Positions 3,671 to 22,448 of a stretch of 22,559 bases of DNA are shown one piece after another. A program made the position numbers and the translations under genes. This DNA is from a virus, in IMG/VR virus record IMGVR_UViG_3300049216_000418, positions 1-22,559 of that record. The stretch is one strand, 5' to 3'. The notes beneath the pieces are model-generated. The model was not told the DNA's origin. It searched no databases and saw only the letters and a list, made by a program, of their open reading frames with translations. Every line of letters begins with the position of its first letter. The stretch's first letter is position 1.

Positions 3671-4063
3671 TTACCTCTTTTGATTGTTTAACTGTGTACT
3701 GATCTTGCCAAGCCCGCGCCTCCACTTGCGCCAAGCAGTGACGTGGTTGCGCTCACCCAGCTCCTGACAAATTATTTTCCATGGCGTCTTGGCCGCTCGC
3801 ATCCAGATTAGTTTTCGCTCCAGAACTGTCACCCACTGCATCCAAGTAAGCGTTTCTTCAAGACGAGAAATTGCATCTGGTGTGGCCAATATTTTAGTGG
3901 GGCGAGTCTCCATGAGCATTAGTTCCTGAGGTGTGTGTACAATGCCAGGCCAGGAATTAAAGTAGCCCTGTACTCTCACTGATGGCAGCTTACGTAATGT
4001 TAGAATGGATTCATAAAAACTATCTTCAACAAACTCTGGTGTACGGTCGGTGTGATTATGCAT
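3671..4063 (-). CDS. DUF6362-like phage protein
   Basis: About 130 residues from the ATG at 4063, which overlaps the end of the resolvase gene by 8 bases. The frame is open further upstream to 4192, but that part lies inside the resolvase gene and has no family character. The protein has the features I associate with DUF6362: FVEDSFYESILTLRKLPSVR and VQGYFNSWPGI near the start, then WVTVLERKLIWMRAAKTPWK and a helix-turn-helix-like HVTAWRKWRRGLGKI near the end. In alphaproteobacterial phages this type sits between replication and packaging genes. The C-terminal part suggests DNA binding; a regulatory or packaging-related role is inference only. Confidence 0.75.
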   Translation of the reverse strand: MHNHTDRTPEFVEDSFYESILTLRKLPSVRVQGYFNSWPGIVHTPQELMLMETRPTKILATPDAISRLEETLTWMQWVTVLERKLIWMRAAKTPWKIICQELGERNHVTAWRKWRRGLGKISTQLNNQKR

Positions 4064-4580
4064 GATGTGGTATGGATTGGTTGAGTTGGATGGGTTGATT
4101 AAGTTGCGGCTTGCGTGACTGTTGCTTGTGTAAAGCGAGATGCAGCAACGCCAGTGCATCTGCTTCGTTGTCGTCACATGGATCGTGGCCAAGAGCTTTC
4201 ACGCTTGCTATCACATCATCTTTGCTTGCATTGCCTTTGCCGGAAATGAAGAGCTTGATTGTGCCAACTGGTACGCCAATGTAAGGAATTCTGTAGCGCT
4301 CGCACAGTGCCGTTAGCTGGCTCAAGAATCCACCGTATGCATGAGCAGCATACGTGCCTTTATGACTATGCACCTGCTCGAAATACACAGCATCTATCTT
4401 GCGTGCACATCTCAAATATGCCTCCAGCCAACGCGCAAAATGCCAGTAGCGTTTGCCTATGCCGTCCTGTTTGTGGCAATCAAAATGTGCAGTACCGCTT
4501 GTGATGTGGCCGTCTTTGTGTAAAGCCCAGCCGGTGCGGGTGCCAAGATCCAAGCTGAGTATCGTCTGTAAGTTATTCAT
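4056..4580 (-). CDS. RuvC-like Holliday junction resolvase (phage type)
   Basis: 174 residues. The RNase H-like fold is marked by SLDLGTRTGWAL at the N-terminus (Asp11), YFEQVHSHKGT (Glu68) and DPCDDNEADALALLHLAL (Asp137 and Asp141), giving the expected acidic catalytic set. VGTIKLFISGKGNASKDDVI is typical of the RuvC family, in which Lys residues help bind the junction. Such enzymes cut four-way junctions or branched replication intermediates with divalent metal; in phages this clears DNA before packaging. The ATG at 4580 has GAGGAC about 6 bases upstream. The last 20 residues (QLNQPIQLNQSIPHHA) are low complexity. It is in one unit with the DUF6362-like genes, and its stop overlaps the next start. 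Confidence 0.85.
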   Translation of the reverse strand: MNNLQTILSLDLGTRTGWALHKDGHITSGTAHFDCHKQDGIGKRYWHFARWLEAYLRCARKIDAVYFEQVHSHKGTYAAHAYGGFLSQLTALCERYRIPYIGVPVGTIKLFISGKGNASKDDVIASVKALGHDPCDDNEADALALLHLALHKQQSRKPQLNQPIQLNQSIPHHA

Positions 4581-4911: not shown

Positions 4912-5169
4912 TTACTCAGGCCGTCTGCAATCAGCACACTCAATCTCGCGCCACTTGCCATCAACTTTATTGATGTATTTGGACTCAATTGGTGCACCGT
5001 TCGCAACATCAAATCCCAGTCTTCTCACACCGGTATTTGGATCGGGCTCAGTTAGGGTAACGATGGTTGCATTGCAGCCAGCATAAGTTTGTCGCAGCTC
5101 ATCCCGTATAGCGGATTCTTCTGCAGCAAACTTTGCCTTAATCGTTGCTTCTTCGTTGTGATTTAACAT
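4912..5169 (-). CDS. Stand-alone copy of the RepA-like ATPase C-terminal module
   Basis: 85 residues; ATG at 5169 with GAGGT about 5 bases upstream. The segment VRRLGFDVANGAPIESKYIN followed by KVDGKWREIE lines up with the C-terminal end of the ATPase at 5403-6242 (LIFELRNGKPIATKNIEL, VEDKWGEV) and of the primase-helicase (LVFELRDGDEPIAPKYVRKI, NGSWREVE). No Walker motifs are present, and a helical N-terminal part (EEATIKAKFAAEESAIRDEL) replaces the ATPase core. It may be a partner that binds the same target as the ATPases, or what remains of a third ATPase gene. That it keeps a good ribosome site and an intact frame argues against simple decay. Confidence 0.55.
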   Translation of the reverse strand: MLNHNEEATIKAKFAAEESAIRDELRQTYAGCNATIVTLTEPDPNTGVRRLGFDVANGAPIESKYINKVDGKWREIECADCRRPE

Positions 5170-5181
5170 ACGTACCTCAAG

Positions 5182-5406
5182 TTAAAGTAATGCCCATTGT
5201 TTCCTCTTTAGAAGAAAGATCGTCGGGTTTATAGGTAGCCAATGAACTGAGCTATTGCAGTATTTCCTTGTGAGGTTTTGTATTCCTGCAATCGCCCGAC
5301 GGGTTAGTATCTGCAGCAATAACTTGCCACCAGAATTTGAACGGTGGGCGATCGAATTAAGACCACCCACCACAGCCGTTAGTGTTTTTCGACAAAACAT
5401 CTTCAT
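5182..5406 (-). CDS. Small ORF, unknown (doubtful)
   Basis: 74 codons; its ATG overlaps the stop of the ATPase gene (ATGA), and it ends 12 bases before the next start. The product (MKMFCRKTLTAVVGGLNSIA at the start, KRKQWALL at the end) is basic and resembles no family I know. Another minus-strand frame over the same bases reads FDRPPFKFWWQVIAADTN between stop codons and looks at least as protein-like, so the interval could be a degraded gene. I list the ATGA-coupled frame with low confidence. Confidence 0.3.
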   Translation of the reverse strand: MKMFCRKTLTAVVGGLNSIAHRSNSGGKLLLQILTRRAIAGIQNLTRKYCNSSVHWLPINPTIFLLKRKQWALL

Positions 5407-6242
5407 GCTGCTTTACGACCTTTTGTTGATACGAGATTGTGACCTGTGTCTGTCTCACCAACTTCACCCCACTTGTCCTCAACCAGCTCGATATTTTTGG
5501 TCGCAATCGGCTTGCCGTTACGTAACTCAAATATCAACTGATAGTTCTCTGAGTCGAGCTCAGGCTGATGCATGATGACACAACTGGAGTAGTGATCGCG
5601 CAATATATGCTGATTGTGTAAACCTTGCACTGCGTCATTCTCCATCTCTTCTTGCGTCAGATGATCTGATTGATGAACCAGAATGACGCCAGTATTAGGG
5701 TTTGTGCCACGAAGCTCGTTCACACCAGTCTCTAGGAAAGTTTGCAGAGCACTGTCAAAGCTGACACCTTCACCAAATTTCAACACGTTATACAGCGGAT
5801 CAATAGCAATGATGTCCACTGGATGCGAGCCAAAACGACTGTGGATAGACTTGAGTGCAGCTTCTATGCCTTTTGAATCAAACTCTGCTGATGTTACAAA
5901 AACAGCCAGATTCTCACGCACTTGCGGCAAATCAAGCTTTACTCTTTCCATCCTTTCCCGCACATAATGATCGTTGTTGTCTAAGTCTGCTTGGAAATAA
6001 ACCACCTTGAGTGGACGAGGAGCCGTCATTCCAAGAAACGATTTGCCAGCTGCCATGTGCATGAGCCAAGAGAGCATCAGATAACTTTTGTACATCTTGG
6101 GACTGCCACTGAATACAAGCAGCCCACCTGGTGTTAGTACACGTGGTGCAATGATGTCTTCTGGCCTCACGTCATTGAGTGCATCTGCCATGTTATAAAG
6201 TGGTTGGATTGGTAGTGTCTTAACGTTTGTTGTTTTAGTCAT
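5403..6242 (-). CDS. RepA-like / AAA_25 P-loop ATPase
   Basis: 279 residues. It belongs to the RecA-fold group of replicative helicase-like ATPases (RepA of RSF1010, Pfam AAA_25). LTPGGLLVFSGSPKMYKSYL holds the Walker A at about 46-53, in which the usual Gly before Lys-Ser is Tyr; I believe a YKS variant exists in this family, so activity is not excluded. Walker B is PVDIIAIDPLYN at about 141-152, followed by VILVHQSDHL, the sensor-like histidine strand. The C-terminus has the FELRNGKPIA module. It is a paralog of the ATPase half of the primase-helicase and lacks primase domains. It probably acts on DNA during phage replication, perhaps as helicase or loader. AGGTAA sits before the ATG, overlapping the stop of the upstream ORF. 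Confidence 0.8.
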   Translation of the reverse strand: MTKTTNVKTLPIQPLYNMADALNDVRPEDIIAPRVLTPGGLLVFSGSPKMYKSYLMLSWLMHMAAGKSFLGMTAPRPLKVVYFQADLDNNDHYVRERMERVKLDLPQVRENLAVFVTSAEFDSKGIEAALKSIHSRFGSHPVDIIAIDPLYNVLKFGEGVSFDSALQTFLETGVNELRGTNPNTGVILVHQSDHLTQEEMENDAVQGLHNQHILRDHYSSCVIMHQPELDSENYQLIFELRNGKPIATKNIELVEDKWGEVGETDTGHNLVSTKGRKAA

Positions 6243-6246
6243 AAGG

Positions 6247-6933
6247 TTACCTAATTAAATGCCCTATAACCTCTCCTGGTTGATACAAAACCGTCAGGCA
6301 ATGGAGAGTGCCTAAGAGCTTGCAATGCTGTTGCAACTGCCTGACGTTATTCCGATTTGCGTCTAGGGCAAACCTTGGGAATTTCTTGATAGATGCGGCT
6401 CTGGTAGGCTGTATTGCCTGCAAAAAAGCTACAGCTTGAATTGTTGTGCTTTGCTGCCTTGAGAAGATTTGTTTTGCAGCTGGTAATGATAGACCGCCTA
6501 TCCTACGGTGATTTAGTTCTGAGTGAGACGGTGAGTCTTGAGAAGTCCAGCTGCAGAAAAATTTCTTTTGATTCTTGAGTTGATATTTTTTTTCTAACAT
6601 TCCCCCAAACACCAGAAATATCTTTTGTAAACATTGAGTGAGAACACCAAGTGTCTCTCTCATATGTTTACATATGGGGGTTGAGTTGGGGACTAGGGTA
6701 TATGCCTGAGACCTTGATAATAAAGGGATTGATGGCTGTCCCTCAAATTTTTTTCTCAATTGAGCGTGAGGGACTAGTCCAACCCTTGATAATAAAGGCA
6801 CCGAAGTCAGTCCCTCATTTTTTCTCCCAATTTGAGGATGAGGGACTTGGAATTTGCAACAAACCCCGTGAATATTAGGTTTGTAGTTCCCCCTCGTCGT
6901 GAGGGACTCATTTGCGGTGAGGGACTCAATCAT
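6247..6933 (-). CDS. ORF of unknown function overlapping an origin-like repeat cluster
   Basis: 228 codons. The ATG overlaps the primase-helicase stop (ATGA), and the stop overlaps the Shine-Dalgarno of the next gene, which favours a real gene. However, the first 75 codons lie in DNA that is repetitive in its own right (72-bp repeats, 6712-6855), giving a duplicated peptide (VPLLSRVGLVPHAQLRKKFE, then IPLLSR). A Phe/Lys-rich stretch follows (QKIFLVFGG, KNQKKFFCSW). The C-terminal 80 residues look more like protein: SLPAAKQIFSRQQSTTIQAV and RNNVRQLQQHCKLLGTLHCL. The true gene may start at an internal Met at about 6600, leaving the repeats outside it. I recognise no domain. Confidence 0.4.
   Translation of the reverse strand: MIESLTANESLTTRGNYKPNIHGVCCKFQVPHPQIGRKNEGLTSVPLLSRVGLVPHAQLRKKFEGQPSIPLLSRSQAYTLVPNSTPICKHMRETLGVLTQCLQKIFLVFGGMLEKKYQLKNQKKFFCSWTSQDSPSHSELNHRRIGGLSLPAAKQIFSRQQSTTIQAVAFLQAIQPTRAASIKKFPRFALDANRNNVRQLQQHCKLLGTLHCLTVLYQPGEVIGHLIR
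6712..6928. repeat. Cluster of 72-bp direct repeats and TGAGGGAC dyads (candidate replication origin)
   Basis: Two 72-bp units begin at 6712 and 6784 with CCTTGATAATAAAGG. Each contains a dyad whose arms are GTCCCTCA and TGAGGGAC: 6738-6745 with 6767-6774, and 6810-6817 with 6839-6846. Between the first pair lies the palindrome CTCAATTGAG (6755-6764). Two further TGAGGGACTCA copies follow at 6900-6910 and 6918-6928, 18 bp apart. That makes six copies of the eight-base core, four in one orientation and two in the other. The cluster sits immediately downstream of the primase-helicase stop. Repeated binding sites with hairpin potential beside a replication gene are typical of phage and plasmid origins; this is an inference from arrangement. 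Confidence 0.55.
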
Positions 6934-9107
6934 AGCTTTTCTTCATTAAAATATTGCCAGGTTTTTTTATCTTCCAACGGTAAAATTTTGCCGCTTTTTC
7001 TGCACTTAAAATGGGTCGGTTCTACGTCGTGAGTATGCGATATTGTGTTCCCTGTTTCCTTGTTGAGAGTCGTGACAATGTATTTCATGTTCTCAACACA
7101 TAGGTAGCCGTGTCCACCATGGGTAGGATCTGCAAGATCGTAGTTAGAGCAGCCATCATTGAGAAACCTGACATATCCGTCAGTAGCAAGCACGTTAAGC
7201 TTTCTGCGCACTGTTTCTGGGCTTCCAAGACCAGAGCTACAGTTGCTAAATGCCTCACAAAACTGATTCATTGTGTAGATGTTGCCCTTACTTGCTTCGA
7301 AACGAATTAATTCCAAAATGACGTCTTTTTTTCGTCTGTTCTCAGCATCTATCTTGCAGCCGTGTTCTTGATTGATTAGCCTCTGTGAAGCATGCTCAAC
7401 TTCACGCCAGCTGCCGTTTATTTTGCGCACGTACTTGGGCGCAATAGGTTCGTCCCCATCTCGCAATTCAAATACTAGCTTGCGATCTGGTAGCGTTGGA
7501 TCAGGTCTGTACATCAAAATGCCTGTTGAAAAATATCCATGTAAGGCACTCGCTCCAGACAAAGCTTGAAACCCATTTTCTTCTAGCTGTTCTAAGTCAA
7601 CCTTTTTAGTGTGATGCACAAGTATGTTAGCTGCTTCTGAATTTACCGAATCTCTGAGCACATCTATCCTCTCTTGCAAGAATGTTTTCATTGCACTGTT
7701 GTCGTTTTCCGTCCTATCATGTTTGCCTCCGTCAAATACATAACGCATAGGATCAATTGCTATGACATCTACAGCATCATCAAAATGGTAAAGAATCGTA
7801 CGGCGCATCAGCTCTATGCCATTTTTATCCAAAGTGATTTTCATGTGTGGAGTGAAGAAGAGGTTTTGTCTAGCCAGAGACACAAGCTCAGATCCTACAT
7901 TCATGCTCTGTATTGTGCGCTGTATGCGTTTGCAAATAGCGTGATATCTGACCTCCACCTGTATGTACGCAATCTTAAGTGGCCTGGATGTTTTCATGCC
8001 AAGAAATTCAAGACCCATAGACATGTGCGCAAGCCAAGCAAGCAAAAAGTCGCTCTTGCCTGTCTTGGGTGCACCACCTATAACACACAGTCCGCCTGGT
8101 GTTAATATGCTTGACTTAACCAAATCATCTGGGCCAGGATCTGTTTTATCTAATGCGTGCCCAGTACCGTACATAGTAACAATACTAGGCAACGCAAATG
8201 TTTTATTCTGTAACAGTGCGGCAATATTTTCTGATTCAGCAACGGCGTCTGCAGCATCCCATTTTTTAGGCTTATCTTTTGGTATCTGCAAAATTGAGAC
8301 AGAGTGCATGCGCTCTTTTTTGAGCTTGTCCGCTACTAACTGTGCATACTTCTTGCCTGCTTCATCATTATCCGGCCATATCAGCAGTTCTTTTTTATAC
8401 AAAGGTAACCAGTCTGTTTTATCTATAGGCGCGTTAGCACCATTCATAGCAGTTGTGGCGCATATGCCAGCGTCAATTAGGGCCTGAGCCGCTTTCTCCC
8501 CTTCTACTAGCACTACAGTTTGAGATGCTTTGATGCCTGGCAAATTGTATAGAGGTCTTGGCTCAGGTGGGTGCTTTTGGCCGGTTTTCACATCATAGGG
8601 GAAGAATTCTTTGCCACAGTCAGTGTCGTACCTGCTAACAATTGTTATAGGGTTGCCTTCAACGTCTGTGTACGTCCACTTCCCTGCAAGCACACGCTTA
8701 GATGACTGTGCTTTGCTTGATATAGATGTCGGCATTGATTGCGTTGATGATGCAGGTGACACTGCTGATGGACGATCTGGTACACCTAGCCATTCACACA
8801 TAGATGAAAATACCGCCTTGAAATCCCGCTTCACGTCTAACCCTTTTGCAGCAGCCCAGAGACTAAAGATGTCGCCTCCTTTTTTTTCTGCAAGGTCATG
8901 CCACATGCCAGTCTTGGGCCCTGTGAGCTGCACAACTAAGCTTCTGCCTGCATCTCCACGGACATTGCCTACATGAAACTCTTTTTTGTCGACTGTGCCC
9001 TTGGGTAATATGTGCTTCAGCCCCAAAGACAACTTACTGTGCATAAGCTGTCTTACATGCTCCTTGTACTCTCTGTTTCGTGTATGAAAGTTTTGCCTGT
9101 CAGTCAT
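6930..9107 (-). CDS. Primase-helicase: Toprim domain plus RepA-like ATPase
   Basis: 725 residues. Residues 1-110 form a primase-type N-terminus (GMWHDLAEKKGGDIFSLW at about 68-84) without the Cys/His zinc ligands of CHC2 primases. A Toprim domain follows: LVEGEKAAQAL at 200-210 (Glu203) and WPDNDEAGKKYA at 244-255 (Asp246, Asp248). Next is a RecA-fold ATPase with Walker A GGAPKTGKSD at 344-353, Walker B DVIAIDP at 447-453 and ILVHHTKK near 498. The C-terminus holds the FELRDGDEPIAPKY module and a winged-helix-like segment (GSPETVRRKLNVLATDGYVR). The protein should both lay primers and unwind DNA at the phage fork. The start is firm: TAGGAGG lies 8 bases before the ATG and overlaps the stop of the SSB-like gene. 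The origin-like repeat cluster lies just beyond its 3' end. Confidence 0.88.
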   Translation of the reverse strand: MTDRQNFHTRNREYKEHVRQLMHSKLSLGLKHILPKGTVDKKEFHVGNVRGDAGRSLVVQLTGPKTGMWHDLAEKKGGDIFSLWAAAKGLDVKRDFKAVFSSMCEWLGVPDRPSAVSPASSTQSMPTSISSKAQSSKRVLAGKWTYTDVEGNPITIVSRYDTDCGKEFFPYDVKTGQKHPPEPRPLYNLPGIKASQTVVLVEGEKAAQALIDAGICATTAMNGANAPIDKTDWLPLYKKELLIWPDNDEAGKKYAQLVADKLKKERMHSVSILQIPKDKPKKWDAADAVAESENIAALLQNKTFALPSIVTMYGTGHALDKTDPGPDDLVKSSILTPGGLCVIGGAPKTGKSDFLLAWLAHMSMGLEFLGMKTSRPLKIAYIQVEVRYHAICKRIQRTIQSMNVGSELVSLARQNLFFTPHMKITLDKNGIELMRRTILYHFDDAVDVIAIDPMRYVFDGGKHDRTENDNSAMKTFLQERIDVLRDSVNSEAANILVHHTKKVDLEQLEENGFQALSGASALHGYFSTGILMYRPDPTLPDRKLVFELRDGDEPIAPKYVRKINGSWREVEHASQRLINQEHGCKIDAENRRKKDVILELIRFEASKGNIYTMNQFCEAFSNCSSGLGSPETVRRKLNVLATDGYVRFLNDGCSNYDLADPTHGGHGYLCVENMKYIVTTLNKETGNTISHTHDVEPTHFKCRKSGKILPLEDKKTWQYFNEEKL

Positions 9108-14996: not shown

Positions 14997-15719
14997 ATGA
15001 CACACAACATGAAACTTACAAACGCTAGCACAACACTAGAAAACGCACCAGAGCACATGCTTGCACTATGGGAAAGACGCATACCAAGCAGGCAAAAACC
15101 AATCATCCTAACCGCACAAAGAAGTATAACCCTGAAAGTGCTGTTTAAACATGTGTTTCTCTCGAAACTAACAGGGTGGGAATCTTTTATAGACTTGATT
15201 CACCACTGCAACGGCTATCTGTCAGGCAAGCATTCTTGTTTGTCTGACGGGGAGTTCTTTGACTGGGCCATTACCCCTAACAACTGCTTGGATGTAATGA
15301 ATGGCGTTTATCTAGAAGAGAAAACGAAACTTATCAAAGCAAAAAACATGATAACGCTCCCTGAGCTGTCAGATAAACTCTCTGCTGCAATGGCAGAGGA
15401 GGCAGGCAAGTTATCTGCATCTGCACCCAGCAAAACGACACAAAACGAGCTACAGAAGGCACTAACCACAGCAAAACAATGGTGGGAGCGACTTTTCAGC
15501 AACGGTGTCGCGCAATACGTCCCTGAAGAGCATCGCCCACCTTTAGTTGAGCTGTGCAACCTCTTGCGCCTGAACTTTCTAGCACCAAGCATACAGCAAG
15601 CCATAATAGACGGTACGCAGCCTGCCACTATGACACTGGAGCTGATACAAAAGCGATTTCCAAAGTCATTCGATGAGCAGCTGGTACACTTTGGCTTTTC
15701 GCAGCACTTAAATCACTGA
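14997..15719 (+). CDS. Paralog family member 1, fused to a recombinase-type C-terminal module
   Basis: 240 residues; AAGGT lies upstream of the ATG. Residues 22-107 carry the module shared by four genes here: LALWERRIPSRQ, then GWESFIDLIHHCNGYLSG, then FFDWAITPNNCLDVMNGVYL. Residues about 150-235 are of a different origin: KALTTAKQWWERLFSNG and LLRLNFLAPSIQQAIIDGTQ to FDEQLVHFGF correspond to the C-terminal tail of the serine recombinase at 19116-19841 (KALAKAWHWQKLLEDG, SPRIKRAILDGTQP, KQSKHFGF). The first module is reminiscent of tails of phage and plasmid replication proteins (W-F-I-S-FL-G then a Trp and G-x-Y). The fusion suggests an accessory factor touching the integration machinery; that is inference. 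Confidence 0.7.
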   Translation: MTHNMKLTNASTTLENAPEHMLALWERRIPSRQKPIILTAQRSITLKVLFKHVFLSKLTGWESFIDLIHHCNGYLSGKHSCLSDGEFFDWAITPNNCLDVMNGVYLEEKTKLIKAKNMITLPELSDKLSAAMAEEAGKLSASAPSKTTQNELQKALTTAKQWWERLFSNGVAQYVPEEHRPPLVELCNLLRLNFLAPSIQQAIIDGTQPATMTLELIQKRFPKSFDEQLVHFGFSQHLNH

Positions 15720-15726
15720 GGTGAAT

Positions 15727-16239
15727 ATGACTGACAAAGCAAAAAGAAAACAAGACAACGTCGCTGCACTAGAGGCAATAAAAGAAAGAAACATCAACGA
15801 AACTGTACAACGGTTGTTACCTATCTGGGAGAAACGTATTCCAGCTCTGCCGTCTGAAAAGCTATACCCACTAACAAGAAGAGAGAAGGTTCAGCTGCAG
15901 CATGTGTTTAGAATTGTATTTCGTGCCAACATAGACCTTTGGTCAAAGTTTGTTGATATGATAGCCGAAAGCGATTTCTTGATGGGTAGATATAAACACT
16001 CTGATCTCCCTAGCCGCTTTGGTCGCGTGAAGCTAAGCTGGGTTCTCATGCCGGAAAACTGCTTGCTGGTAAAAGCTGGCGCGTACTCAAATGACAACTT
16101 CGATGAGAGTTCTGTTTTAGGTTGTGGTTATTATGGTGGCTATCTAACTCCAAGTGATCTTGCAATCTCCATGAAGGATGAGCTTGATGAGTACGGTGAG
16201 GATGGTGGGTCTGTATCTCTCTTCAGAATAAAGAGGTAG
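15727..16239 (+). CDS. Paralog family member 2
   Basis: 170 residues. I start at the ATG at 15727, which has GAGGTG 5 bases upstream, rather than at the GTG at 15721, which overlaps that ribosome site. After a charged helical leader it shows the shared module at about 30-120: LLPIWEKRIPALPSE, LWSKFVDMIAESDFLMGRYK, and LSWVLMPENCLLVKAGAY. Of the four copies it has the clearest SDFLMGR and PENCLLV signatures. The C-terminus (GCGYYGGYLTPSDLAISMKD, then an acidic run) is unique. It lies 7 bases after the previous gene. Function unknown. Confidence 0.65.
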   Translation: MTDKAKRKQDNVAALEAIKERNINETVQRLLPIWEKRIPALPSEKLYPLTRREKVQLQHVFRIVFRANIDLWSKFVDMIAESDFLMGRYKHSDLPSRFGRVKLSWVLMPENCLLVKAGAYSNDNFDESSVLGCGYYGGYLTPSDLAISMKDELDEYGEDGGSVSLFRIKR

Positions 16240-16242
16240 GCC

Positions 16243-16614
16243 ATGAACAACAACATAACCAATATACCCAGCAGCATGTTACAAGTATGGGCGTTTGCAA
16301 TGTCTATGGATCGCAGTTTGAGTTTGAGCCAAAAAAGAAAAGACGCGCTGAATTTTCTATTTACCAACGCGTTTAATTCAAGCCTACAACAGTGGGAACA
16401 CTTTGTTGATCTTCTAGGTGACAGCGAGTTTTTACAGACAAGGTTTTCTAAGCGCGGCCAGCTTTTTGATTGGGCCATCACACATAGAAATTGCTTGCGA
16501 ATTCTGAATTGCGTTGGTACAGCAGAATATATAACGCATGACCTTGCTCAGAGATTGGTGGCTGAAGCTGCAAAAGAAAAGAAGAGCGAATCGCAATCAG
16601 TGAGTCTTGTATGA
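16243..16614 (+). CDS. Paralog family member 3
   Basis: 123 residues; AGAGGTAG before the ATG overlaps the previous stop. Shared module at about 12-92: MLQVWAFAMSMDRSL, QWEHFVDLLGDSEFLQTRFS, and LFDWAITHRNCLRILNCVGT. The RIP motif of the other copies is replaced by AFAM. It ends with a short charged tail (EAAKEKKSESQ). The stop overlaps the ATG of the next ORF. Confidence 0.65.
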   Translation: MNNNITNIPSSMLQVWAFAMSMDRSLSLSQKRKDALNFLFTNAFNSSLQQWEHFVDLLGDSEFLQTRFSKRGQLFDWAITHRNCLRILNCVGTAEYITHDLAQRLVAEAAKEKKSESQSVSLV

Positions 16615-16871
16615 AACACAAAGCGATATACACAGCAGCCGGAATGAGTTCTAGCCAAAACACAAAAACTCACGCTGAAAGTACGCTTTGCGAAAGCGTT
16701 TTGCCACTGACAAATGTTTGGCATGAATTGCCGTTGAACCGAGACCACTGCTCGGATGAGCGGCATTTTGAGCTTGCAAAAAATTCGTACTTGTGGTACG
16801 GTTGTTTAAAGGTGTTGAAATTCATGGCTGGAAATAAAAAAGCCCGAAGTTTTTACACCTCAGGCTTTTAG
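16611..16871 (+). CDS. Small ORF ending inside a terminator, unknown
   Basis: 86 codons, with an ATGA overlap to the preceding gene. No family recognised. The middle part (VWHELPLNRDHCSDERHFEL) is protein-like, but the last 12 codons (NKKARSFYTSGF) are read from the terminator hairpin at 16838-16869. That can happen in a real last gene of an operon, or show that the frame is open only by chance or by fusion to the terminator. There is no resemblance to the four-paralog family. Confidence 0.4.
   Translation: MKHKAIYTAAGMSSSQNTKTHAESTLCESVLPLTNVWHELPLNRDHCSDERHFELAKNSYLWYGCLKVLKFMAGNKKARSFYTSGF
16838..16869 (+). terminator. Rho-independent terminator closing the repressor operon
   Basis: Arms AAAAGCC (16838-16844) and GGCTTTT (16863-16869) form a 7-bp stem that can extend through G-C and A-T pairs toward a TTTTAC loop. 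The A-run and T-run flanking it make it likely to work in both directions. It separates the repressor operon (14136-16871) from the recombinase operon starting at 17020. Confidence 0.65.
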
Positions 16872-17019
16872 AAGCATCGACTAAGATACTTACTTTGGCA
16901 AGATTTATCTTAGTTGAAACCTTCTAAAAAGTCAAACGGTTCTTGATGGGGCAAAGCGCAAATCAGTATAGCGCAGCTCTATCCAGAATCATGTTGTTTA
17001 ACTTTAGAATGATAAAACT

Positions 17020-17379
17020 ATGAATGATTACAAAATAAAACATAATTCAAACATTCCAAATCTAATGCTGGAAATATGGGAAAGCCGAATACCCACAAAT
17101 TCTCCATTAGCTCCAACTCCAAAGAGAAAAGCCGCCCTGGAATTGCTCTTTACCCACGTATTTAGCTCTAGCTTATCACGCTGGGAAGCATTTGTTGATT
17201 CCATAGCCATTAGCGAAGTGCTGATACTCAAAGCCGTTAAGGCTTGTGACTCTGGCAAGTCCGGTGAATTTCTGAACTGGGCTATCAAGCCTGAGACATG
17301 CTCGACTATTTTAGCGGGTGTCTACGAAGAGGTAGGTGACGAACTAGCAGATTCTGCTGGCACGGAAGAAACGTCATGA
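17020..17379 (+). CDS. Paralog family member 4, first gene of the recombinase operon
   Basis: 119 residues. Shared module at about 15-103: LMLEIWESRIPTNSPL, RWEAFVDSIAISEVLILKAV, and FLNWAIKPETCSTILAGVYE. The tail is acidic. The ATG has no visible Shine-Dalgarno. An 11-codon frame (MLFNFRMIKL, 16991-17023) ends with a TGA overlapping this ATG, so it may be translated by coupling from a leader peptide. The stop overlaps the DUF2924-like gene (ATGA). Unlike the other three copies it lies beyond the terminator at 16838-16869, so it would be co-expressed with the recombinase. Confidence 0.65.
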   Translation: MNDYKIKHNSNIPNLMLEIWESRIPTNSPLAPTPKRKAALELLFTHVFSSSLSRWEAFVDSIAISEVLILKAVKACDSGKSGEFLNWAIKPETCSTILAGVYEEVGDELADSAGTEETS

Positions 17380-20263: not shown

Positions 20264-21832
20264 ATGACATTTCCTGCAGTATTTAATGTAGGTACATCGC
20301 TTAACGGTACCAACGGGTTTCAACTAACTAGTACAACATACTATTTTGGATATTCTATAGCATCGATAGGCGATTTCAATGGGGACGGGGAAGCGGATAT
20401 AGTGATTGGCACAGAATATTCTATAGTATATGTAGTCTATGGTAGTAACAACATATTTGTAACCCCTTTTGACGTAGATTCATTGCTCAACGGTACCAAC
20501 GGCTTTAAACTCACTAGCACAAGTAATTATTTTGGACTTTCTGTAGCATCAGCTGGAGACTTTAACTGTGATGGAAAGGCTGACATAGTAATAGGTACGT
20601 CAGACTGGGCTAACAGCGCATACGTAGTCTATGGTAGTAACAACATATTTGTAACTCCTTTTGATGTAGATTCATTGCTTGACGGTACCAACGGCTTTAA
20701 ACTCATTAGCACAAGTAATTATTTTGGCCAGTCTGTAGCATCAGCAGGTGACTTCAATGGTGATGGAAAAAATGATATAGTGATCGGCACAGAGTATTCC
20801 ACTGCATATATAGTCTATAGTAGTAAAAATATGTTTGTTAATCCTTTCGATGTAGATTTATTGCTTAACGGCACTAATGGATTCAAACTCACTAGCACAA
20901 CCGGTTATTTTGGGATGGTGGTAGCATCAGCCGGAGATTTCAATGGAGACGGAAAGGCTGATGTCGTGATCGGCACCGCTTATTCTGTGGACACAGCATA
21001 TATAATCTATGGTAGTAACAGGGCGTTCGCTAGCCCTTGTGATGTAGACTCATTACTCAACGGCACTAACGGCTTTAAACTCACGAGCACAAGCTCCCAA
21101 TTTGGGTTCTCTGTAGCATCGGCTGGCGATATCAATGATGACGGAAAAGCTGACGTCATCATTGGAACATACGATGGTGCCGCTTATGTCATCTATGGTA
21201 ATAACAGTGAGTTTGCGAATCCATTTAATGTGGACTCATTGCTTAACGGTAACAACGGCTTCATACTCACCAGCGCTACTAGCAGTTTTGGTGACTCTGT
21301 AGCTTCCGCTGGAGATATTAATACTGACGGAATACCAGACATAGCGATAGGTGCATCTGCATCTAATACAGCTTATATTATATATGGCAATAAAAGCGGG
21401 TTTGGGAATCCATTTAATGTGGATTCATTGCTTGACGGAAACAACGGCTTTCAACTCGAGAACTGTGGCACCTATTGCGGCAATTCTGTAGCATCAGCTA
21501 TAGATTTCAATGGTGATGGGGAAACGGATATCCTGATCGGAGCACCAGGTTCTAACGTAGCTTCTGTCATCTATGGTCCCCGTGTTGGGAACACTATTTA
21601 TATTAACTCTTCTGGTGTATTTTTTGGTACGCCAAGAAATGATACCTTCTTTATTAACGCCACTGGAGATGTCACAATTACAGGTGAAGGTGGATATGAT
21701 ACTTATGTTGTATACGAACGCACTAACTTAAACATTACATTTACTGATTTCGACACAGGGCAAGATCAAATAAGGTATATGCCTATCGGAAGCTGCCCAA
21801 GTTTCAATAATACAGAAGTAACATACTATTGA
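20264..21832 (+). CDS. FG-GAP repeat beta-propeller protein (integrin-alpha-like)
   Basis: 522 residues; AGAGAGG precedes the ATG. Seven repeats of 62-64 residues begin at about 14, 76, 140, 202, 266, 328 and 391, each reading N/D-G-x-N-G-F, then YFG-x-SVASAGD, a calcium-loop motif (DFNGDGKAD, with variants DINDDGKAD and DFNGDGETD), VIG, YVVYG and PFDVDSLL. Seven blades is the number in an integrin-alpha propeller, so a closed propeller is likely. All seven loops keep the acidic ligands. The C-terminal 75 residues differ (FGTPRNDTFFINATGDVTIT, GGYDTYVVY, ITFTDFDTGQDQIRY) and recall RTX-type ends, suggesting type I secretion; there is no N-terminal signal peptide. A surface adhesin for host cells is the likely role. 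It may be a host gene or phage cargo. Confidence 0.82.
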   Translation: MTFPAVFNVGTSLNGTNGFQLTSTTYYFGYSIASIGDFNGDGEADIVIGTEYSIVYVVYGSNNIFVTPFDVDSLLNGTNGFKLTSTSNYFGLSVASAGDFNCDGKADIVIGTSDWANSAYVVYGSNNIFVTPFDVDSLLDGTNGFKLISTSNYFGQSVASAGDFNGDGKNDIVIGTEYSTAYIVYSSKNMFVNPFDVDLLLNGTNGFKLTSTTGYFGMVVASAGDFNGDGKADVVIGTAYSVDTAYIIYGSNRAFASPCDVDSLLNGTNGFKLTSTSSQFGFSVASAGDINDDGKADVIIGTYDGAAYVIYGNNSEFANPFNVDSLLNGNNGFILTSATSSFGDSVASAGDINTDGIPDIAIGASASNTAYIIYGNKSGFGNPFNVDSLLDGNNGFQLENCGTYCGNSVASAIDFNGDGETDILIGAPGSNVASVIYGPRVGNTIYINSSGVFFGTPRNDTFFINATGDVTITGEGGYDTYVVYERTNLNITFTDFDTGQDQIRYMPIGSCPSFNNTEVTYY

Positions 21833-21848
21833 CCATGAAGGCAAAATC

Positions 21849-22448
21849 ATGCCACCAACACAAACTGTGATCACTGCTACATGTTATCCAGTTAGCAGCA
21901 TTTTACTACCGCACAATCTGACAATGACTTTTTTGGGAATTTCTAATCCCAATCAGGTGCTAGTTGATTGTCATACAGAAACTATAACTCAAACTAAGAG
22001 CGATACTGAACCACCAACAAATACTATAACACGCTATCCAGTTATTAGCATTTTACTACCGCACAATCTGACAATGACTTTTTTGGGAATTTCTAATCCC
22101 AATCAGGTGTTAGTTGATTGTCATACAGAAACTATAACTCAAACTAAGAGCGATACTGAACCACCAACAAATACTATAACACGCTATCCAGTTAGCAGAA
22201 TCTCACTACCTCATAACCTGACAATGGCTTTTTTGGGGGTCCGTGATACTGATCAGATATCGATTGATTGTAATACGGAAACTGCAACTCACACCGGCAA
22301 CAGTACTATGTCACTAACGCAACAGTTAACCTCAACTATAAACAGCACTAACACACCTTCATATATACGCACACTATCAGTTACCCAACCTCCTCCTTGC
22401 TTCAGTAAGTATCCAGAAACATTAGATACATTCAGCGGCTCCCGCTAG
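21849..22448 (+). CDS. Repeat protein of unknown function next to the FG-GAP gene
   Basis: 199 residues; GAAGG lies 8 bases before the ATG and 17 bases separate it from the FG-GAP gene, so they are probably co-transcribed. Three 50-residue units follow each other: YPVSSILLPHNLTMTFLGIS then NPNQVLVDCHTETITQTKSD, a near-identical second copy, and a diverged third (YPVSRISLPHNLTMAFLGVR, QISIDCNTET). Each has one Cys. Linkers are Thr/Pro/Asn-rich (TEPPTNTITR), and the C-terminus is Ser/Thr/Pro-rich, like extracellular stalks. No signal peptide or transmembrane segment is visible. I recognise no domain; the composition and neighbour suggest a secreted or surface protein. Confidence 0.65.
   Translation: MPPTQTVITATCYPVSSILLPHNLTMTFLGISNPNQVLVDCHTETITQTKSDTEPPTNTITRYPVISILLPHNLTMTFLGISNPNQVLVDCHTETITQTKSDTEPPTNTITRYPVSRISLPHNLTMAFLGVRDTDQISIDCNTETATHTGNSTMSLTQQLTSTINSTNTPSYIRTLSVTQPPPCFSKYPETLDTFSGSR
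21885..22334 (+). repeat. 150-bp in-frame tandem repeat, three units
   Basis: Units begin at 21885, 22035 and 22185, each starting TATCCAGTTA. By my reading the first two differ at only three positions, so one arose by recent duplication; the third is clearly diverged, mainly in its second half. The period is a multiple of three, so unit number can change without breaking the reading frame. Confidence 0.92.

Follow-up and report, generated by a model that had tools for sequence, protein, structure and literature searches.

A candidate iteron origin beside a primase-helicase gene in a family of proteobacterial prophages, and the helix predicted to read it

A group of short direct and inverted repeats lies directly behind a primase-helicase gene in a viral genome, and the question is whether it is the replication origin on which this protein acts. 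The DNA is IMG/VR record IMGVR_UViG_3300049216_000418, positions 1 to 22,559, and this whole stretch of 22,559 bases is called the window. A sequence-only reading had proposed an origin, and comparison with relatives strongly supports this by the place of the array (136/158 loci), the co-variation with a protein helix, the IHF sites in the gaps and the confinement of the core. We estimate the probability at about 0.88 that positions 6661–6926 are a (pro)phage replication origin, whose iterons the adjoining primase-helicase binds with its C-terminal winged helix.

The repeats and their neighbourhood

The eight-base core TGAGGGAC occurs six times in the window, all within 6738–6925 and nowhere else: 6738(-), 6767(+), 6810(-), 6839(+), 6900(+) and 6918(+). 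Dinucleotide shuffles of the whole window gave a mean of 0.33 copies and at the most 2, and six were reached in 0/100, which bears out the six copies first reported. Read as nine-base words on the strand of the initiator gene or its opposite, five sites are exact AGTCCCTCA and one is TGTCCCTCA (Table 1), and at one mismatch AGTCCCTCA has only two extra, isolated sites in the window, at 2566 and 14474. The array begins 3 bp past the stop codon of the Toprim + AAA_25 primase-helicase. The end nearest to the gene is the direct pair spaced by 18 bp, followed by two units, 6712–6775 and 6784–6847, which are spaced by 72 bp and 77% identical over 64 aligned nt; each has the 15-mer CCTTGATAATAAAGG at its start and one inverted pair. 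The repeats with their common element, the 18-bp pair formed by the last two cores, and the position directly after the primase-helicase gene had all been described correctly by the sequence-only reading. It had also seen hairpin potential in the dyads, and here we came to another view. The spacing of the core had been named as something to check in relatives, and the spacing of the inverted pairs is not kept there; the hairpin reading was therefore rejected, and the dyads seem rather to be binding sites in pairs. A hairpin is found consistently only past the array.

Table 1. Features of the window around the candidate origin
Feature	Position	Strand	Basis or remark
Primase-helicase (initiator) gene, 725 aa	6930..9107	-	Pfam AAA_25 2.6e-18, Toprim_2 4e-7; RSF1010 RepA profile match; AlphaFold2
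Winged-helix DNA-binding part, aa about 585-672	7092..7355	-	AlphaFold2 and fold matches
Recognition helix with flank, aa 629-643, SPETVRRKLNVLATD	7179..7223	-	aa 630, 631, 634 co-vary with iteron
Iteron 1, AGTCCCTCA	6918..6926	-	
Iteron 2, AGTCCCTCA	6900..6908	-	18 bp from iteron 1
Iteron 3, AGTCCCTCA	6839..6847	-	inner dyad
Iteron 4, AGTCCCTCA	6809..6817	+	partner of iteron 3
IHF-like element, CCTTTATTATCAAGG on minus strand	6784..6798	-	in iteron-free gap; site one mismatch from WATCAANNNNTTR
Iteron 5, AGTCCCTCA	6767..6775	-	outer dyad
Iteron 6, TGTCCCTCA	6737..6745	+	partner of iteron 5
Second IHF-like element, same 15-mer CCTTTATTATCAAGG	6712..6726	-	
Hairpin CATATG-TTTA-CATATG past last iteron	6661..6676		read from sequence; most relatives have a hairpin there
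RuvC-like resolvase gene	4056..4580	-	PHROG 159, 2.2e-30

The window has three IHF sites at one mismatch in 260 bp (P = 0.008), and the CCTTGATAATAAAGG elements in the gaps account for two. Among 68 distinct regions of relatives the exact IHF consensus was found in 21 (shuffles: mean 1.0, max 3), and where these sites are listed they mostly lie in iteron-free gaps of about 47–55 bp. A hairpin after the last iteron had z < -2 in 63% (offset 0) and 78% (+20) of the 68 regions. DnaA boxes (TTWTNCACA) were seen in 0/68 regions with 2.3 expected, an absence that fits self-initiation yet removes one usual mark of an origin. GC skew, another check that had been suggested, has no clear extreme or turn at the array in the window.

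A 228-aa open reading frame, 6247–6933 on the minus strand, overlaps the repeats. A tblastn search of the loci gave it no relative (best E = 3.6), and for this reason it is probably not a gene. Scans of the window matched no Rfam family and found no tRNA. The module genes of the window are a sigma-like factor, Sak4/AAA_24, AAA_25, a RuvC-like gene, a ParB-methylase and a small terminase, and this set resembles the replication module of Wolbachia phage WO. By gene order, the RuvC-like gene comes next after the origin in relatives L002 and L003. Between origin and ruvC the window has a second AAA_25 gene (5403–6242, minus), with 34% identity to initiator aa 309–570 and 38–41% to the ATPase part of other relatives, and a third fragment (4912–5169, minus; 40% to aa 524–576); relatives such as L002 have neither. 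Further repetition was observed at other places in the window. Four consecutive ORFs on the plus strand at 14997–17379 (14997, 15721, 16243, 17020) have a similar start, MLxxWExRIP...F...W..FVD, adjoin a large serine recombinase and look like a tandem family. Three adjacent ORFs lie at 185–1345 on the minus strand; the first and third have a common N-terminal motif, RRVQQL..DGIIPKP..GKY, and the first matches the terminase small subunit. At 20264–22448 (plus) an ORF of FG-GAP-like repeats is followed by one with near-identical internal repeats.

The initiator has Toprim primase and ATPase/helicase in one chain, as judged by its Pfam domains, and Toprim E202, D246 and D248 and ATPase K351 and D452 are invariant in 13 proteins. 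The best profile match to a solved structure is RSF1010 RepA (1g8y, E 3.2e-4), at profile positions 321–518, in the ATPase part. The AlphaFold2 model of aa 571–725 has a C-terminal winged helix (pLDDT 86.6), and helix aa 630–643 is present both in this model and in that of the full-length protein. Structure matches of the C-terminal model to winged helices are weak (Z up to 6.6), Foldseek gave no match at E <= 0.001, and P4 alpha is absent among the structure matches listed, which excludes nothing. A search with the C-terminal peptide of the window found only two contigs that were already known. Relatives of the protein are rare in phages, with 4 of 50,697 records in the phage collection covering at least 80% of it; one scan of bacterial genomes gave at least 80 relatives of near full length.

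Arrays in relatives and the recognition helix

Relatives were found at 160 loci or more in two scans and were in the main close to full length. The loci come from viral contigs and from genomes whose titles are mainly those of Alpha-, Beta- and Gammaproteobacteria. At least 100 bp downstream were available in 158 of 168 loci, and here the commonest 8-mer was counted in the next 450 bp. It occurred four times or more in 136/158 loci and had a shuffle P <= 0.02 in 143/158; with near-duplicate loci merged, this was 126 and 133 of 147 distinct proteins. A top word with at least four copies was seen at the gene end in 1/158, upstream in 1/148, at +900–1350 in 0/126, and downstream of other ORFs (at least 200 codons) in 9/1358. 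Exact core 8-mers numbered 822 within 500 bp downstream as compared to 78 in the remaining 1.39 Mb. In the 68 distinct regions the array had a median span of +21 to +211 past the stop codon and a median of 9 iterons. The top word had three copies or fewer in 22/158 loci, some of them cut contigs or relocated or weak arrays, and L041, L043, L104, L202 and others are unexplained.

The words themselves differ. Conservation of the core had also been named as a check, and the core varies between relatives; place, register and organisation are what is kept. The window has AGTCCCTCA, relatives L160 and L002 have CAGTTGGCA and CAGTTTGG, respectively, and in the interval from the primase gene to its neighbour L002 has CCAAACTGGA, AcaML1 CCGTCAGACC and WOVitA1 AAGTTGGCA. 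In L200 (Sansalvadorimonas) repeats of CAGTTTTC type, at about 7878–8061, begin within the initiator gene, at its 3' end. In L042 (AcaML1) the CCGTCAGACC repeats, at 6245–6385, are downstream of a protein with the same Toprim half and a D5_N/DUF5906 helicase half. Words unusual for the family follow the initiator in L348 (GAGGACGA, eight copies) and in L205 and L206 (AGCAACTC, near-palindromic GAGTTGCTC, ten copies).

Pairs of TGAGGGAC also occur elsewhere, inverted in 35 stretches and direct in 29, none of them with this C-terminal domain. Nine loci have at least four copies in 400 bp; three of these are initiator-like genes of another kind, and in the remainder the copies seem to be coding or low-complexity repeats. 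In the three, the word is arrayed inside a gene that starts with an apparent helix-turn-helix (L010 3389–3452, L015 801–938, L037 4579–4734), a lambda O-like layout carrying the word of the window. In L015 and L037 the copies have the 18-bp spacing seen in the window and are followed by a gene for a P-loop ATPase.

The consensus words of 141 loci fall into one register, [C/A]AG-NNNN-CA, with a variable centre; examples are CAG-TTGG-CA, CAG-ATTG-CA, AAG-AATC-CA and CAG-TTTG-GA, and in the window AG-TCCC-TCA. Position 2 is A in 140/141 loci and position 3 is G in 141/141, a constancy which is partly by construction, because the register search itself sought AG. These 141 of the 168 loci were the co-variation set. 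Left out were loci with less than 100 bp downstream, with a top word below three copies or P > 0.05, or with no clear register, as well as L042, L098 and L172; for L199, L133, L046, L048 and the window the register was assigned manually.

Mutual information between the variable bases and the protein columns (similarity-weighted, Neff 47) placed aa 630, 634 and 631 as the top three of about 705, and these residues are at the start of the recognition helix (aa 630–643) of the C-terminal winged helix. Since kinship alone can yield such signals, a tree was made from aa 1–575 only, and co-occurring changes were counted across 705 columns. On the tree aa 634 comes first of the 705: the core changes on 41 branches, and 18/22 of the changes at aa 634 fall there. 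Third and sixth place go to aa 630 and aa 629, base 7 is best matched by aa 631, and 13/15 top columns are within aa 571–725. Taken singly, bases 4, 5 and 8 have their best column outside the helix, and bases 1, 4 and 9 are not best explained by it. A link between base 5 and aa 590 was strong by mutual information, but it was absent on the tree and was therefore dropped.

After collapsing, 48 unique helix/core pairs remained. R631 together with R634 goes with G6 (16/17 vs 0/31 others), N634 with T6 (11/11), S/T631 with C/T7 (9/9 vs 4/39 others) and D631 with G8 (4/4 vs 1/44 others). The word of the window is alone in the 141-locus set, its helix/word pair has no second example there, and its acidic E631 is not accompanied by G8. 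The nearest helix gave the exact word for 57% of the 141 loci and the ATPase and Toprim halves for 14–16% with N-terminal identity >=75% removed, a comparison that handicaps the N-terminal halves because their close relatives are removed; at <0.9 identity the ATPase half reached 0.65 vs 0.69 for the helix. On the co-variation, the C-terminal domain is predicted to bind the repeats.

Later scans gave 28 further proteins, none of which had been used in the co-variation set. Where the seven helix residues were already known, the expected word was present in 13/15, in 12 as first choice (the misses were L234 and L251); most of these 15 are closely related to loci of the co-variation set. Where the residues were new, the exact word was matched in 1/13. 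The link between D631 and G8, which was stated before the new loci were fetched, held in 7/7 new D631 proteins, one of which, L331, carries its word just three times. Of the seven, one is a fragment, and the other six differ in their N-terminal part and align to the family only from the ATPase on. As the link holds despite these different N-terminal parts, the comparison indicates that the word belongs to the winged helix and not to the whole protein. L327, L330 and L347 also have a different N-terminal part, and no array was seen in them.

Holospora is a further case. Loci L137, L203 and L063 have no repeats downstream of the initiator gene, which in L137 is directly followed by a gene on the opposite strand. 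Instead, a cluster of seven AGATTT sites is found some 7.6 kb upstream, directly ahead of the start of a RuvC-like gene (MENILALDLGTQTGWALL in L137, read at length in L203), and the relocated array also has a hairpin. The Holospora helix, QHSIRDR, is nearly the NHSIRDR of loci with the word CAGATTTC. This fit is an agreement and not a blind prediction, because the cluster was found before the word was compared.

Origin or another signal

The array position, the common register, the co-variation of the recognition helix, the IHF sites in relatives and the hairpin come from the comparison of loci; binding, melting, priming and use of the origin in the cell are what we infer. Initiator molecules would bind the direct and inverted AGTCCCTCA iterons through aa about 630–634, and an IHF/HU-type protein would bend the gaps at the TATCAA elements. 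The AAA_25 ring, of RSF1010-RepA type, would then assemble and open the DNA, and the Toprim half would lay primers, perhaps at the hairpin past the array.

Plasmid iteron arrays can serve control, and this array might likewise be an operator or a copy-control (incompatibility) site, at which the same protein represses the operon or limits replication, with the true origin elsewhere. One promoter-like match in the region speaks for this, but such matches are not above shuffles (1 vs 1.3), and the array is downstream of the gene and not at the promoter of the operon. The near confinement of the core to one place (822 against 78 copies), the Holospora array that moves with ruvC and not with the initiator gene, and the company of IHF sites and a hairpin also argue against this reading, which we find improbable. 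Less probable still is a transcription terminator or a signal at the RNA level after the primase gene, with the dyads as hairpins. Terminator-like matches in the region are indeed above shuffles (4 vs 0.6) and one is within the first repeat unit, but that one is on the plus strand, opposite to the primase transcript. Moreover, the dyads vary in their spacing, many iterons stand in direct orientation, base changes track the DNA-binding helix, and there is no Rfam match. That the repeats are a functionless local duplication in a spurious ORF is the least credible explanation. The 72-bp tandem duplication accounts for part of the repetition, and the overlapping 228-aa ORF has no relatives, but the duplication makes neither the inverted pairs nor the 18-bp pair, and arrays of other words at the same place in 136/158 relatives already contradict it.

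If the repeats are an origin, a wider picture can be drawn, which we offer tentatively and at somewhat less than even odds. The loci would be a widespread family of prophage replicons in Proteobacteria with a readable protein-DNA code, in which the origin word is set by some five residues that begin one helix. The words would diversify freely, the origin could move, as in Holospora, if the word fits, co-resident prophages would be compatible by word, and the hairpin would be the primase's own priming site. Given such a code, origins would be predictable from the protein sequence alone, including that of WO; for this Wolbachia phage, whose host cannot be grown freely, a candidate origin is predicted at about 20370–20558 of HQ906662.1. 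The comparison gives a concrete candidate for origin and initiator in a prophage family almost absent from the phage collection. The natural series of matched helices and iterons is useful for finding out how DNA is read by winged helices, and the pairs are material for replicon sets without cross-talk.

Comparison with known systems

The organisation had been described as matching no origin that could be named, but it can be named: it appears to work like P4 alpha/ori and SaPI Rep/ori. The ATPase/helicase of P4 alpha is of superfamily 3, whereas that of the window is of the AAA_25/RSF1010-RepA type, and the window protein is for this reason not of the P4 alpha family proper. IHF sites in the gaps and the hairpin on the ruvC side are features of the window's family, unlike P4 alpha. 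The likeness is in the domain plan: passages of PMC4234260 describe alpha as a primase of Toprim type that binds the P4 origin repeats through its winged helix, and both proteins join Toprim-type primase, helicase and a winged helix, which in the window protein is predicted to bind origin repeats.

SaPI Rep is a helicase, and the iterons that its C-terminal domain recognises lie right behind its own gene (excerpts of PMC7581432, citing Ubeda 2007). The same source describes SCCmec Cch2, and the likeness to both is in iterons that directly follow a helicase gene and, as is predicted for the window, are read by the C-terminal domain; this placement, which SaPI Rep-ori requires, was found in the 136/158 loci. 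In the excerpts SaPIs encode a separate primase, and SaPI Rep is without a fused Toprim primase (PMC7581432). In the window, by contrast, a single chain combines primase, RecA-type ATPase and winged helix.

RSF1010 is similar in the ATPase, which is related in sequence to RepA (the 1g8y match above), and in having iterons plus hairpins, and RSF1010 oriV has hairpin primase sites. RepA, RepC and RepB' of RSF1010 are three separate polypeptides in the account excerpted from PMC4234260, whereas the functions in the window are not split in this way.

Phage WO has a similar set of genes, with sigma factor, AAA_24, AAA_25/RepA, RuvC and methylase, and its relatives are the best matches in the phage database. 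WOVitA1 has AAGTTGGCA iterons and an exact IHF site downstream of RepA; its core differs from that of the window, and its RepA has another version of the ATPase. The available portion of the phage WO taxonomy paper (PMC9203015) does not mention 'iteron' and discusses only the origin of the host chromosome. A literature search with six strings of the family's words gave no related match, and, judged by titles and abstracts, no account of this family's origin was recognised.

Geminivirus Rep is a rolling-circle Rep, a protein unrelated to the initiator described here, and geminiviruses are ssDNA viruses of plants. Only the evolutionary pattern is alike: close relatives have different iterons, and the residues that give specificity were deduced by comparison (passages of PMC12548392). 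Origins whose iterons are recognised by a fused primase-helicase are known from earlier systems, and what would be new here is an ATPase of the RSF1010-RepA type in that role.
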